DNA from: Eubacterium sp. TM05-53
GTDB lineage: Bacteria; Bacillota_I; Bacilli_A; Erysipelotrichales; Erysipelotrichaceae
Length of the DNA: 51,548 nt
Direction of reading: 5' to 3'
Assembly (NCBI RefSeq): GCF_003436425.1
Contig: NZ_QSPK01000003.1
Location: 1 to 51,548 of the forward strand
Shown here: in pieces, positions 9,573-14,692 of the stretch
Layout of the letters: each line of letters starts with the position of its first letter
Numbering within the stretch: the stretch's first letter is position 1
Made by a program: the position numbers and the translations under genes
Notes under the pieces: model-generated
The model's input: the letters and a program-made list of their open reading frames with translations, nothing else
Database searches by the model: none
Told to the model about the DNA's origin: nothing

Positions 9573-10559
9573 TTACTTACACAAACGATTTACAATGTTT
9601 TGAATTGCATCATAGTTATATCCAGCATCCATTAATCGTTTCTTACGGTCAGCTCCGTTTCCCCACTTACCAGCAATAACCTCTTTTGCAATTGCTTCGT
9701 TGGATTTACTAGGCTTTGAACCATATAGTTTTTCATTAACTTTTGCTTGAACTGCATCGTAATTATAACCTGCTTTTGTTAAGCGATTTTTACGATCATC
9801 ACCATTACCCCACTTGCCAGCAATGACTTCATCAGCTAACTGAGCAATGGTTTTTGTTGGTTTTGGAGCAGGTTTTGAGCCTCCTATCATTTGATTTACT
9901 AATGATTGAATAGCATTATAATCGTAACCTGCTTTTGTTAAGCGATTTTTACGATCATCGCCATTTCCCCATTTACCATCAACAACCTCTTTTGCAACTT
10001 CTTCATTGGTTTTTTTATTACCTGTAGATGGTTTACTTGGTTTAGATGGAGCTTCAGCCCCATTCACCATTTGATCATACCATTGTTGAGCTTTTTGCAT
10101 ATAAGCATCCCTTTGCTCATCCTGTAATCGACCAGGGCAAGATGTAGCTGCAAAATGATTATGAGGGAATACATTTACTTTCCATTTAGGACGTCCCAAT
10201 CCATAATATTTACATAATGCTGCAACTAAATGAGCTCCTGCATCTAAGCATGCTTCACTAATATATCCTCCTGATTTATTGGCATGTTCAATTCCGATAC
10301 TTGAACAGTTGGCATCCCAGTTGCCTGCATGCCATGCTGTATCACCATCCCAAACCAATTGTCCAATACGACCTGACGATTCAACTTGATAGTGTGCTGA
10401 AGCTGGTCTATTTTGCCATACAGAATAACATCCTTCTACAGTTAAATCACCTGCGTTGTAATGAATTATTATTTTATTGATTTTTCGTCCTGAACGCCCC
10501 TTAGTATAGTGCTTATTCAAGATTTTATTTACATCGGCATTTAAGTTTTTCCAATCCAT
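9573..10559 (-). CDS. Endolysin: N-acetylmuramoyl-L-alanine amidase with three CW_7 repeats
   Basis: The 328-residue lysin has an N-terminal Amidase_2 zinc hydrolase (about 20-165) with KIIIHYNAG, the His of GDTAWHAGNW, and HNHFAATSCPGR carrying the C-terminal zinc ligands. A Lys/Pro/Ser linker leads to three CW_7 cell-wall-binding repeats, each holding GKWGNGxDRKxRLxxAGYxYdAIQ. It cuts the amide between muramic acid and the peptide stem at the end of infection. There is no signal peptide, so export depends on the holin. Its ATG overlaps the stop of the small upstream ORF. Confidence 0.95.
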   Translation of the reverse strand: MDWKNLNADVNKILNKHYTKGRSGRKINKIIIHYNAGDLTVEGCYSVWQNRPASAHYQVESSGRIGQLVWDGDTAWHAGNWDANCSSIGIEHANKSGGYISEACLDAGAHLVAALCKYYGLGRPKWKVNVFPHNHFAATSCPGRLQDEQRDAYMQKAQQWYDQMVNGAEAPSKPSKPSTGNKKTNEEVAKEVVDGKWGNGDDRKNRLTKAGYDYNAIQSLVNQMIGGSKPAPKPTKTIAQLADEVIAGKWGNGDDRKNRLTKAGYNYDAVQAKVNEKLYGSKPSKSNEAIAKEVIAGKWGNGADRKKRLMDAGYNYDAIQNIVNRLCK

Positions 10560-11095: not shown

Positions 11096-11121
11096 AAGGT
11101 AACGAAATTAATCGTTACCTT
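11096..11121 (-). terminator. Terminator of the DGR reverse transcriptase unit
   Basis: AAGGTAACGA pairs with TCGTTACCTT (10-bp stem, six-base loop), followed by TTTTAAT on the minus strand. The RT's last codons form one arm, so termination occurs immediately after RT. Confidence 0.85.
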
Positions 11122-12262
11122 GATTTCTAGTCAGTACAAACCAACCATCTATTCCTTTTTCATAATCACCAAATATTTCTGTTTTTAATGCGTAACTATT
11201 ACAATGCTTCAACAGTCCAAAATATGAATTAACTACTTGCGTAGCGTGTTCTAAAGTACAATCTCCTTCATTGTATCGTTTCATCACGCCTTTTAAGTTC
11301 CTTTTAATTCTCAAGGAAGTGCTTTTCCTTATTTTAATATGTGTAGCCCATAAGCGAAAACCACAAAATTCTATCCCTTGATTAATTGGTCTAATACAGG
11401 TCTTTTGGTTCATTTCCATTTTCATGACATCATTTGCGAACTTTTCTAGTTTCTGATGCCATTCTTTTATTTGTTTCTTATCATCAGAAAGCACCACAAT
11501 ATCATCCTGATAGCGTATATAATACTTAATTCCTAATGTCCTTTTAGCATATTGATCTATCTGATCATTGTAGACATTGGCTAACATTTGAGAAACCAAA
11601 GCACCCACTGGCATTCCTTTATCAAATAAACGTTCGCTCATTTCAACATCTTCAGGACGCATGCCTCTAGGCAATCCAAAAGGCATATCAGGGCTTTCTA
11701 TGCGTGTTTCAAGCCACCTAACAACACGATCATCTTTTATTTTCTTCTTCAATACATCAATCATGACTTTATGATCCACTCTATAGAAGTATTTACTAAA
11801 GTCTATTTTCAAGTAATACCACTTGCTTAAGTCAGATACATCTAAACCGTTTTTCAGTCTATTGTATCTTTTACTATTGACTAATTTAAGCCAATAATGA
11901 AGCCTTTTAACTGCTGCAATTTGTCCTTTTCCTTTGATGCATGCATAAGAATCCTTAATGTACATCCTCATAAACATAGGACTTAAAACTTGATAAAACG
12001 CCCACTGTTTTATCACTTCAGGGAAGTCTTGAGCAAGGATCAAGCGACACTTTGGTTCGTAAATATAGAACTCTCTATATTTAGGATAATCAGCAACTTC
12101 GCTTCTTAATTCATTTTGAATCTTAACTAGATTCGCTTCTAGATTTTGAGTAAATATGAGTACATCTTTTCTATATCTTTTGCTTTTACGAGCGTTTAAA
12201 TAAGCCTTGTATATGTTTTCATCACTAACGATATAGTCATATACATTCTTTATTTTCGCCAT
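11108..12262 (-). CDS. Diversity-generating retroelement reverse transcriptase
   Basis: The 384-residue enzyme has the compact DGR RT layout without maturase or endonuclease domains. LKIDFSKYFYRVDH (about 151-164) is the first catalytic Asp motif, GMPVGALVSQMLANVY (about 216-231) carries the DGR-type SQ signature in place of group II SP, and YIRYQDDIVVL (about 248-258) is the YxDD catalytic pair. The C terminus has GIEFCGFRLW and a VNSYFGLLKHCNSY thumb region. With Avd it copies template RNA with adenine errors and transfers the cDNA to the VR. ATG 12262 is preferred: AGGTG stands six bases upstream, while GTG 12271 and ATG 12268 crowd that site. Confidence 0.93.
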   Translation of the reverse strand: MAKIKNVYDYIVSDENIYKAYLNARKSKRYRKDVLIFTQNLEANLVKIQNELRSEVADYPKYREFYIYEPKCRLILAQDFPEVIKQWAFYQVLSPMFMRMYIKDSYACIKGKGQIAAVKRLHYWLKLVNSKRYNRLKNGLDVSDLSKWYYLKIDFSKYFYRVDHKVMIDVLKKKIKDDRVVRWLETRIESPDMPFGLPRGMRPEDVEMSERLFDKGMPVGALVSQMLANVYNDQIDQYAKRTLGIKYYIRYQDDIVVLSDDKKQIKEWHQKLEKFANDVMKMEMNQKTCIRPINQGIEFCGFRLWATHIKIRKSTSLRIKRNLKGVMKRYNEGDCTLEHATQVVNSYFGLLKHCNSYALKTEIFGDYEKGIDGWFVLTRNQGND

Positions 12263-12271
12263 GATCATCAC

Positions 12272-12425
12272 CTAATTTTTAAGATGCTTAACGGAGTTCA
12301 TTTAACATTACTATCGGTTTTCATCTTTATTTATTTTTTTGCTTGTTCAGCATGGAATTAGACTCCTTTATTCCCTTGATTTGAAATGACAGACGTATCC
12401 ATCATATACCTAATTGCAAGAGCAG
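12272..12425 (-). other. Leader between template array and RT
   Basis: This 154-bp AT-rich stretch has no convincing ORF. On the minus strand it begins after R1 with GCAATTAGGTATATGATGG, which resembles the GGGATTAG leader of the array units. It may be the remnant start of a fifth unit. It probably forms part of the long template RNA or the RT leader. Confidence 0.4.
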
Positions 12426-12554
12426 AGCGGAGCGAAAACCTACATTGTGATTGGAATTGGAGCGTGGGTTATTCAAGTTTACAGCGAACACGCCTGCATT
12501 GCCACCATTATCCCAATTGCCACCACGAAAAGGCAAATCATATAGTCCAATCCC
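12426..12554 (-). repeat. DGR template-like repeat R1
   Basis: The 108-bp core (12426-12533) aligns without gaps to the VR. Read on the minus strand in the VR frame it encodes LPFRGGNWDNGGNAGVFAV, then NLNNPRSNSNHNVGFRSAL. Nine of its codons are Asn (AAT/AAC) and the core has 24 adenines by my count, the composition expected of a template. It differs from the current VR at many non-adenine positions, so it is not that VR's parent. The unit includes a leader GGGATTGG at 12547-12554. Confidence 0.85.
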
Positions 12555-12574
12555 ATTACTCTTTATTGGGTTAG

Positions 12575-12703
12575 AGCGGAGCGAAAACCTCTATCATTGT
12601 CAGCATTGGAGCGTGGGTTATTCAGATTCAATTCGAACACGCCTGAATTCGAATGCTCCCAAAAAGCGCCACCACGAAAAGGTCTTCATAATAATCTAAT
12701 CCC
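12575..12703 (-). repeat. DGR template-like repeat R2
   Basis: An ungapped 108-bp core (12575-12682) encodes RPFRGGAFWEHSNSGVFEL, then NLNNPRSNADNDRGFRSAL. It has six Asn codons and about 22 adenines. The frame letters at fixed positions (FRGG, GVF, NPRSN, GFRSA) are shared with the VR while the other positions form a different scaffold. A GGGATTAG leader lies at 12696-12703. Confidence 0.85.
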
Positions 12704-12711
12704 ATAAGGAT

Positions 12712-12843
12712 AAAGCGGAGCGAAAACCTATACTGTTCCAAGTGTTGGAGCGTGGGTTGTTCAAATTCAAAGCGAACACGCCTGCATCGCTAGAATTATT
12801 GAAAGAGCCACCACGAAAAGGCAAACGCTAATAGCCTAATCCC
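12712..12843 (-). repeat. DGR template repeat R3: parent of the present variable region
   Basis: Positions 12712-12829 align with the VR (13626-13743) over 118 bp without gaps and differ at seven sites: 12731, 12746, 12753, 12758, 12760, 12797 and 12800. At each, the coding strand has A in R3 and G, C or T in the VR. No other base differs. This is the fingerprint of adenine-specific mutagenic homing and identifies R3 as the active template. It encodes SFNNSSDAGVFALNLNNPRS, then NTWNSI, with Asn at the positions changed in the VR. Confidence 0.97.
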
Positions 12844-12863
12844 AAAATAGCATAAAAGAATAG

Positions 12864-12992
12864 AGCGGAGCGAAAACCTACAACGTCAACGGAGTCCGAG
12901 CGTCCCCAGCGTACCAGCAAAGCAAACACGCCAGCACTAGTCGTGGTCGCTAAACCTCCACCACGAAAAGGTCTCACTATTCATCTAATCCC
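12864..12992 (-). repeat. DGR repeat R4, adenine-depleted
   Basis: The core (12864-12971) aligns without gaps to R1-R3 and VR. It encodes RPFRGGGLATTTSAGVFAL, then LVRWGRSDSVDVVGFRSAL. It has no Asn codon and only about 11 adenines, fewer than the VR itself. It therefore looks like a product of past diversification rather than a fresh template. It also carries non-adenine differences from R3, so it derived from another template. Its leader overlaps the Avd stop codon (ctaatccc on plus, 12985-12992). Confidence 0.8.
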
Positions 12993-13485
12993 TATGACTT
13001 TTTTGACATGCATAACAAAGAGATTTACCAAAATTTCTCATTGAATATTCATAAGACTTAGGAGTTATTTTTGTACCACATTTCTCGCAAACATATGTTT
13101 TTTCAATAGCAGTATTTCCTGATTTTTCTTTTTCAGCCTTAATCCAGCCACCTAACATCTTGCCGACTTTATCTAATCTTCGAGACATTTCCATGTAGTG
13201 GTTTTCGCCTTTAAAAAAATGCAATTCAAATGCTAATCTTATATAAACCTTTAATGCAGCTAGTTCTACATCCATTTTTTCAAGCGTTGTAGTCTTAGTG
13301 TATTTTTTATTAGCAGTAATTGCATATTTAAGAACTAAATCCATACTTCTTTTGATATCTTGAACTAAAGAGAATTTTTGACTCTTTGGAAAATGATCTA
13401 ACAACGGATAGGCATATAGCAACATATCATAAACCTCCTGCTGTATGACCAGCTGAGTCTCATACGATCCTAATTGATTATCCAT
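12985..13485 (-). CDS. avd: Avd-like DGR accessory protein with C-terminal zinc ribbon
   Basis: Residues 1-115 resemble the Avd four-helix bundle: LVIQQEVYDMLLYAYPLLDHFPKSQKF, IKRSMDLVLKYAI, LAALKVYIRLAFELHF and YMEMSRRLDKVGKMLGGWIKA. Avd forms a basic ring that binds RT and template RNA and is required for mutagenic homing. An extra tail, CEKCG...YEYSMRNFGKSLCYACQ, has two CxxC pairs and resembles zinc ribbons at the ends of phage single-strand DNA-binding proteins. The likely start is ATG 13485 after GAGGTGG; ATG 13488 and GTG 13494 are alternatives. It is the first gene of the avd-template-RT transcript. Confidence 0.85.
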   Translation of the reverse strand: MDNQLGSYETQLVIQQEVYDMLLYAYPLLDHFPKSQKFSLVQDIKRSMDLVLKYAITANKKYTKTTTLEKMDVELAALKVYIRLAFELHFFKGENHYMEMSRRLDKVGKMLGGWIKAEKEKSGNTAIEKTYVCEKCGTKITPKSYEYSMRNFGKSLCYACQKSHRD

Positions 13486-13503
13486 CATTACCACCTCAAG
13501 TAA

Positions 13504-13572: not shown

Positions 13573-13590
13573 TTGCCACTCACGTGGCAA
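13573..13590 (-). promoter_or_regulatory. DGR target-site hairpin downstream of VR
   Basis: On the minus strand TTGCCAC-GTGA-GTGGCAA is a perfect 7-bp stem with a GNRA-type four-base loop, 35 bp after the VR. In the Bordetella phage DGR a hairpin/cruciform just after the VR is needed for efficient homing and marks the target. This hairpin has the right size and location and is absent after the array units. Confidence 0.65.
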
Positions 13591-13612: not shown

Positions 13613-14692
13613 TTACAGACCTACAAAAGCGGAGCGAAAACCTAGACTGTTCCAAGTGTCGGAGCGCGGGTAGGTCAAATTCAAAGCGAACACGCCTGCA
13701 TCGCTAGAATAATCGAAAGAGCCACCACGAAAAGGCAAACGCTCTCCCTTATTTCTCATATATATATAATCTCCATGATTTGCTTTTGTTCCATCAGGAT
13801 AAATTGCTAATGCCTTTAAAATTTCAGGTGGAGTGATACTTCCATCTGCTGTCATATCTTCAAATTGTCCTGCTGCATATGGCTCATCATTTGTTTGTTG
13901 ATGCTCTAGGGTTGTTACTAATTTAGGAAGTCCTTTTCCTGCATTTACAGTACCTGGATCTACTGTATAATCGAACTTTAATGTATTGGCTGATTTTGGA
14001 GTAACCAAGTTTCCACTCTTATCAATCGCTTTCCAATGGCTAGAATTTACAGTCATATCTGCATCGCTTGCTGCATTATTATCAGCAATAACTTGGATTT
14101 CACCATCAACTAAACGAAGTCCTCCAACCCATTCCCATACATTTCCATTCAAGTCAAAGATACCTGAATTGCTTCCATCATGCGCCCATGTAACTGGACC
14201 AGAACCTGTTCCAACTCTACCAGTTTTCCCATCATATTTATAGGTTTCTACACCTTTTTCATGTGGATATGATACATCACTTCCGTAATTGTTATTACCT
14301 CTTGGAAAGTATCCGTTCTTTTTGCACCACAAAGCAATTGCAGCCCATTCTGCATTTGTCATTAAGTGCCATCCTTTTCCTTTTTTTTCACAAGCTTTTC
14401 TTGCTGTATCAAAATCAATATAAGCTTTTGGATCTTGCATCGGTAAGGAATAAGCTCGATCGTTCATTACGATATTTTGATACTTACTTATGAAGATTTC
14501 ATCTTTTTCTACACCATTGACAATAAAGGCTGGATGAACTGAATTAGAACCTCCTTGAATAACATCTGAAATTTTAAATTTAGGAATTCTAACCATGATT
14601 GATGGATTCCCTAAATCATCAAATAATACTGTATTTTTTCCTCCTGTAGATGCTTCGATTGCTAACTTAATTGCATCAAAATTTGTCTCCAT
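13613..14692 (-). CDS. DGR target: C-type-lectin/FGE-fold tail tip protein with variable C terminus
   Basis: The 359-residue protein carries an FGE-sulfatase/C-type-lectin fold as found in DGR ligand-binding proteins: KGWHLMTNAEWAAIALWCKKNG (about 107-128), DLNGNVWEWVGG (about 180-191), and the terminal RGGSF...GFRSA. The last 39 residues before VGL are the VR. Template-derived changes fall at D327, Y328, T340, Y341, D345 and L350, plus a silent change in P342. These positions should be surface-exposed ligand contacts. As the last gene of the tail operon, it is probably the receptor-binding tip, and its variation would alter host range. Confidence 0.92.
   Translation of the reverse strand: METNFDAIKLAIEASTGGKNTVLFDDLGNPSIMVRIPKFKISDVIQGGSNSVHPAFIVNGVEKDEIFISKYQNIVMNDRAYSLPMQDPKAYIDFDTARKACEKKGKGWHLMTNAEWAAIALWCKKNGYFPRGNNNYGSDVSYPHEKGVETYKYDGKTGRVGTGSGPVTWAHDGSNSGIFDLNGNVWEWVGGLRLVDGEIQVIADNNAASDADMTVNSSHWKAIDKSGNLVTPKSANTLKFDYTVDPGTVNAGKGLPKLVTTLEHQQTNDEPYAAGQFEDMTADGSITPPEILKALAIYPDGTKANHGDYIYMRNKGERLPFRGGSFDYSSDAGVFALNLTYPRSDTWNSLGFRSAFVGL
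13626..13743 (-). repeat. DGR variable repeat (VR)
   Basis: 118 bp matching R3 apart from seven template-adenine substitutions: A to G three times, A to C twice and A to T twice on the coding strand. Identity ends at the conserved CGCTCCGCTTT, the likely initiation-of-homing segment, five codons before the stop. Confidence 0.96.

Follow-up and report, generated by a model that had tools for sequence, protein, structure and literature searches.

Four tandem template-like repeats in a prophage DGR, and mosaic variable repeats in its relatives that point to more than one donor template

The window, by which we mean the whole stretch of 51,548 nt that was analysed and from whose first letter all coordinates are counted, contains a prophage. 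Its genes, which include a transposase (phrog_310), a transposition protein (phrog_296), a terminase, a minor head protein, a tape measure and a baseplate, together with a match to Mu Gp48, mark it as Mu-like. An amidase with three CW_7 repeats (PF01510, PF08230), probably an endolysin, lies at 9573-10559 on the minus strand. On the same strand a target gene is followed by avd, four repeat units in the order R4, R3, R2, R1, a spacer RNA and a reverse transcriptase (RT). These features are given below, where L015 and L016 are related viral records, VR is the variable repeat, TR the template repeat, and a non-A difference is one at a template position other than adenine.

11108..12271, minus strand: reverse transcriptase (PF00078, 59.1 bits), with the RTs of single-TR DGRs as its relatives
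12282..12422, minus strand: single spacer RNA between R1 and the RT, Rfam RF02921 (RT-14; 67.7 bits, gathering score 48.1)
12427..12531, minus strand: R1 core; template fits of the relatives' VRs show its counterparts as donors in L015 and L016
12576..12680, minus strand: R2 core; its counterparts in L015 and L016 likewise come out as donors in these fits
12715..12819, minus strand: R3 core, from which the present VR derives (0 non-A mismatches between them)
12865..12969, minus strand: R4 core, adenine-poor by repeat alignment and adenine count, to which none of the VRs analysed could be traced
12985..13494, minus strand: avd (PF22296 bAvd; NF033474 DivGenRetAVD, 96.8 bits, cut-off 80)
13573..13590, minus strand: hairpin downstream of the VR, seen in the sequence, with a 7-bp stem and the loop GTGA
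13613..14692, minus strand: target gene, a variable protein of FGE-sulfatase/C-type-lectin type (PF03781), with the VR at its 3' end
13629..13733, minus strand: VR core of 105 nt (against R3, 0 non-A and 7 A differences)

Judged by its sequence, the locus has all the DGR features tested apart from the single template that is usual. The closest annotated relatives of its RT adjoin TR/VR pairs, as is the case for DGR-type RTs, and motif 4 reads VGxxxSQ, which we take to be typical of DGRs. The Avd match to NF033474 lay above the cut-off, RT-14 supplied a structured spacer RNA between TR and RT, and the target was assigned to the C-type-lectin-like variable proteins by PF03781 and by its profile match to PDB 5vf4 (E 9.9e-91), presumably a Thermus DGR variable protein. 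The target also matched phrog_2889 and, more weakly, the tail protein phrog_5302; an AlphaFold2 model of it was poor (mean pLDDT 52.9) and was left out of the analysis. VR and TR share the block GGTTTTCGCTCCGCT, after which their flanks diverge (IMH versus IMH*), as at the 3' boundary of a DGR. Over the 105-nt core the VR differed from R3 at seven positions, all of them adenines in R3, which bears out the derivation of the present VR from R3 given in a preliminary description of this DNA. A single TR is usual for a DGR, without being strictly defining; here there were four units. The hairpin stands at a place equivalent to that of the BPP-1 target hairpin, and its loop departs from the consensus GRNA given in the available part of that account (PMC3240598). 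The corresponding loop was GATA in three related loci (L120, L126 and L060), matching GRNA, and GCTA in L016.

The four units stand head to tail between avd and the RT, and the starts of the ungapped copies are separated by 149, 139 and 150 bp, as had been described. Compared over 109 nt, the non-A mismatches of the VR numbered 15 to R1, 22 to R2 and 33 to R4. R1, R2 and R3 are open in the frame of the target. Their adenines (24, 22 and 22) fall mainly on the first and second positions of codons, and they have nine, six and seven AAY codons; one codon in R2 (AGA) could mutate to a stop, and none in R1 or R3. These three units have conserved anchor blocks in common, which flank three variable adenine-rich stretches, and the 14-nt 3' anchor GGTTTTCGCTCCGC is identical in all units. 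Four template-like units are present as described earlier, with the correction that R4 is unlike the other three and that a role for it as a working template in the window is unsupported. It has 11 adenines, no AAY codon and no patchwork fit: as a mutated patchwork of R1-R3 it was rejected, 16 non-A mismatches being left even with four switches. The L015 counterpart of R4 is decayed, and none of the VRs analysed could be traced to R4. In the window's phage, R4 looks worn out by these signs.

Viral contigs yielded three records with the same array, namely L002, L001/L015 and L016 (IMGVR_UViG_2884097670_000001). The L002 array was identical to that of the window (582/582 bases), and L002 is probably the same prophage; the RTs of L001/L015 and L016 were 97% and 78% identical to that of the window. 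At codon 45 the RT frame of L015 (L015:5001-6164) carries a TAG stop; its remainder is 97% identical to the window's RT. Further RT sequences, P0002-P0021, showed 78-84% identity. Searches of genome contigs with the RT and with an RT alignment found no relative, nothing in the phage collection matched the array region, and all RT matches among plasmids were below 60% identity.

Each VR was fitted to its own four units, with any base allowed at template adenines and the leftover mismatches counted. The window VR was explained by R3 with no switch between units, no non-A mismatch and seven A differences. The L015 VR left 11, 2 and 0 non-A mismatches at zero, one and two switches, and the sole two-switch solution was R1-R3-R2, with seven A differences. 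In this solution the R1 and R2 parts are firm; the R3 piece is weaker, because it rests on two sites (R1 and R2 alone leave 2 non-A mismatches). The L016 VR was a mosaic of R2 and R1 with nine A differences, its non-A mismatches being 10, 0 and 0 at zero, one and two switches. The switches of L015 could be placed within core positions 28-49 and 61-72, and that of L016 within 33-54, ranges that fall in or beside the anchors GCAGGCGTGTTCGC and AACCCACG. Both mosaic VRs carry adenine changes absent from every unit, and their flanks are of VR type.

These fits make it very probable that, in the window's clade, a single VR is fed by two or more units. The preliminary description had proposed R1 and R2 as alternative templates, to be recognised by VRs of relatives that match them with adenine-only mismatches. 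The L015 and L016 VRs hold R1- and R2-derived stretches of just this kind, as mosaic pieces, and both contradict the opposing view that no relative's VR derives from R1 or R2. That description held neither the apparent combination of units inside one VR nor the single spacer RNA of the array, nor the tandem arrays found in other phages (see below).

Several controls were applied to the fits. With C, G or T as the mutable base the fit failed, at a cost of 7.6-14.5 as against 0.1-2.1 for A. Random redrawing of the differing bases reached 0 non-A mismatches in 0/2000 trials for L015 and in 0/2000 for L016; for the window VR this control is uninformative (2000/2000), its differences all being at A. 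When the VR letters at variable columns were shuffled, 0/2000 trials reached 0 non-A mismatches for window, L015 and L016 alike. Foreign arrays left 10-18 non-A mismatches at two switches, near relatives apart: the window VR fitted the L015 templates with 0, and the L015 VR left 5 on the window's templates. On the L016 templates the L015 VR left 17, as against 0 on its own. Among the 170 RT groups without an array, 141 had 0 non-A mismatches in their best 80-nt TR/VR window. Since single-TR relatives obey the adenine rule so strictly, the non-A mismatches of the L015 and L016 VRs to single units need another donor.

At the protein level, 17 target homologues (P0121-P0137) were compared with the three arrays, codons containing A being allowed all residues that they can reach. 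P0121 and P0123 each had three incompatible residues with the best single unit and none with one switch from R1 to R3 of the window array, so that the window's R1 is compatible with the 5' part of both. P0127 had no residue incompatible with R2 of L016 alone. The other 14/17 were unexplained by the three arrays; among them P0122 ends in the R3 downstream flank, P0124 is out of frame at its end and P0136 is one residue longer, and the remainder come from phages other than the three whose templates were compared. The mosaics are few, two in DNA and two at the level of protein.

We surveyed 318 loci, often several per contig, of which 264 had a detectable TR/VR pair and 54 had none. They represent 199 distinct RTs, 177 of them with a pair, in a sample biased to RTs close to that of the window. 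Further repeat copies were flagged in ten RT groups, as tandem arrays in seven and as one copy elsewhere in three; a tandem array was thus absent in 170/177 of these related RT groups. Four flagged loci (L068, L212, L291 and L302) were left out, on the view that they hold coding repeats or a second VR. L334 was dropped as a case of a rewritten template unit, its first unit being the end of a target gene fused to a template-type flank with no avd between. In L334:2642-4151, as in P0122, the VR runs straight into a template-type 3' flank, and these fusions may reflect either a deletion between VR and TR or an assembly collapse.

Outside the window's clade, arrays were seen in L120 (four units), L126 (three), L060 (three) and L121 (two whole cores in an incomplete record), the L121 RT being 98% identical to that of L120. 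A FastTree tree was built from 196 RTs, three being too short to place, including that of L015 owing to its stop. The six placed array RTs fell in one clade of 15 tips (support 0.53) alongside nine tips without a detected array, which is compatible with either one gain followed by losses or several gains. The L120 VR agrees with its unit T2 and shows no mixing; 10 A and three non-A differences were counted over 116 nt, and the three non-A ones lie at positions 0, 9 and 114. No clean donor was found among their own units for the VRs of L126 (8 non-A mismatches at three switches) and L060 (6 at four switches). In L126:4402-5000, two template-spacer modules 304 bp apart are identical over the 110-nt core, pointing to a recent duplication in the array. 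Because two of its units are identical in this way, a donor unit of L126 may have been overwritten.

The spacer RNA divides the arrays into two layouts. At least one RT-14 copy was found in all 14 sources searched (the window and 13 related loci). Window, L015 and L016 have one copy each, after R1 only, and the spacer is nearly unchanged in L016. L120 has four copies, L121 three, L126 three and L334 two, and in L120, L121 and L126 every template has its own RT-14 above threshold. Of the three L060 copies (48.3, 45.7 and 34.1 bits) only the first clears the gathering score, and single-TR relatives have one each after the TR (7/7). What is repeated elsewhere is thus a template plus its spacer; the window's clade carries several templates on one spacer. 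If priming as in BPP-1 holds here, the RT would get to R2 and R3 either by reading through from R1 or by a jump at the common anchor. The contrast between a shared spacer and one per template offers a natural experiment on RT priming.

We consider that the locus is best explained as an array of alternative templates whose products are joined into VR mosaics by nested partial homing, and give this reading a probability of about 0.6. One RNA, running from avd through the single spacer, would serve as template. The RT would copy different units into cDNA with adenines randomised, and the cDNA would replace all or part of the single VR, its 3' boundary fixed at the common anchor and its 5' boundary falling anywhere with homology, as in BPP-1. 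Successive homing from different units would leave a mosaic VR with adenine changes, the newest piece lying on the 3' side. The joining step we infer by analogy with BPP-1 homing, for which the accessible part of PMC3240598 reports a fixed 3' boundary, 5' integration that needs TR/VR homology (8 bp being enough) and cryptic 5' sites.

Mosaics could instead arise during cDNA synthesis, if the RT started at the spacer beside R1 and switched to R2 or R3 at identical anchors, or read through to them. We regard this as rather unlikely, for all that RT-14 adjoins only R1 in window, L015 and L016 where L120, L121 and L126 have a spacer per template, that the anchor GGTTTTCGCTCCGC is the same across units, and that the sole explained VR of a spacer-per-template array, that of L120, is unmixed. 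In BPP-1, moreover, cDNA is primed by a spacer adenine and ended by a motif in avd, going by what is available of PMC12875486. However, the window VR stems from R3 alone, a unit that lacks an adjoining spacer, and this would need an immediate jump or read-through; moreover, the L120 contrast is a single case. Homologous recombination at the DNA level, with each VR fed by a single unit at any one time and mosaics formed later by exchange among the target genes of co-infecting phages or of lysogens, predicts equal mosaics with switches in conserved blocks, but the pieces match alleles of the same phage's array, the L015 VR leaving 0 non-A mismatches on its own templates as against 5 on the window's. 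This makes recombination improbable, and even under it R1 and R2 must have been templates, so that the main claim stands.

It is far less probable still that short-read assembly mixed VR and template sequences. L015, P0121 and P0123 are metagenomic as far as their sources tell, and fusions of VR and TR that may be collapses do exist (L334, P0122); on the other hand, the mosaic VRs hold adenine changes absent from all units and keep VR-type flanks, and L016 looks like an isolate record, a status that we read from the IMG number convention. We find it similarly hard to credit that R1, R2 and R4 are functionless relics of template duplication and that R3 alone works. In the window R3 alone fits the VR, R4 has few adenines and the L015 version of it is decayed, yet in L015 and L016 the counterparts of R1 and R2 come out as donors, and the window's R1 fits P0121 and P0123.

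Beyond nested partial homing, we tentatively put forward, at somewhat short of even odds, that the array is kept up as a library of templates that have several parts and are interchangeable, in which anchor-guided joining plus adenine randomisation would be a selected route to diversity, with a logic like that of V(D)J joining combined with hypermutation. The same machinery may also rewrite the templates. Over a 132-nt stretch, R3 and R4 of L016 show 18 differences up to position 52 and then four, all at A in R3, so that a mutagenised R3 copy may possibly have landed on R4 by template-to-template homing. Between the R1-R3 cores of window and L015, 10 positions differ, seven of them involving A, which alone is no proof of rewriting.

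The usual DGR has one written scaffold and varies it at adenine positions only. Where an array is combined with joining, a tail protein could exchange separate parts of its scaffold in addition to single residues, and the widened sequence space that had been proposed for this locus would follow from the mosaics. Many non-adenine sites distinguish the units, and a VR therefore shows, for each of its parts, the template from which that part came. Template choice and cDNA boundaries, which single-TR systems make difficult to observe, can thereby be followed with sequence data only.

The DGR of BPP-1 (mtd, avd, TR, brt) resembles the present one in its RT, Avd, adenine-only change from TR to VR, IMH-like 3' boundary, hairpin after the VR, spacer between TR and RT, and a C-type-lectin target at a phage tail position. 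It differs in having one TR, where here there are four tandem units of which several feed one VR in relatives. In the MetaCSST survey (PMC6642488), in the part available, 216/271 DGRs with several VRs had only one TR, a Stenotrophomonas DGR had two TRs and six VRs, and the multi-TR DGRs have several TRs alongside several VRs, with no tandem array for one VR or mosaic VR described there. Tandem template arrays were not found in a search of the titles and abstracts of open-licence papers, from which we do not claim their absence from print. The single-TR DGRs of BalMu-1 (Bacillus phage), Dulem virus 37, FP_Lagaffe (Faecalibacterium phage), VP58.5 (Vibrio phage) and ACA1 (Pseudoalteromonas phage) have the gene order seen here (target, avd, TR, RT), with targets 36-48% and RTs 34-43% identical to those of the window in the search results. 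They differ from it in their one TR, which has 0 non-A mismatches to the VR in the best 80-nt window. In segmental gene conversion of the pilin or vlsE type, tandem silent donors yield a mosaic expressed gene. The present array works alike, with no kinship between the two; in contrast to gene conversion, the change here is adenine-specific, and thus passes through a mutagenic RT.
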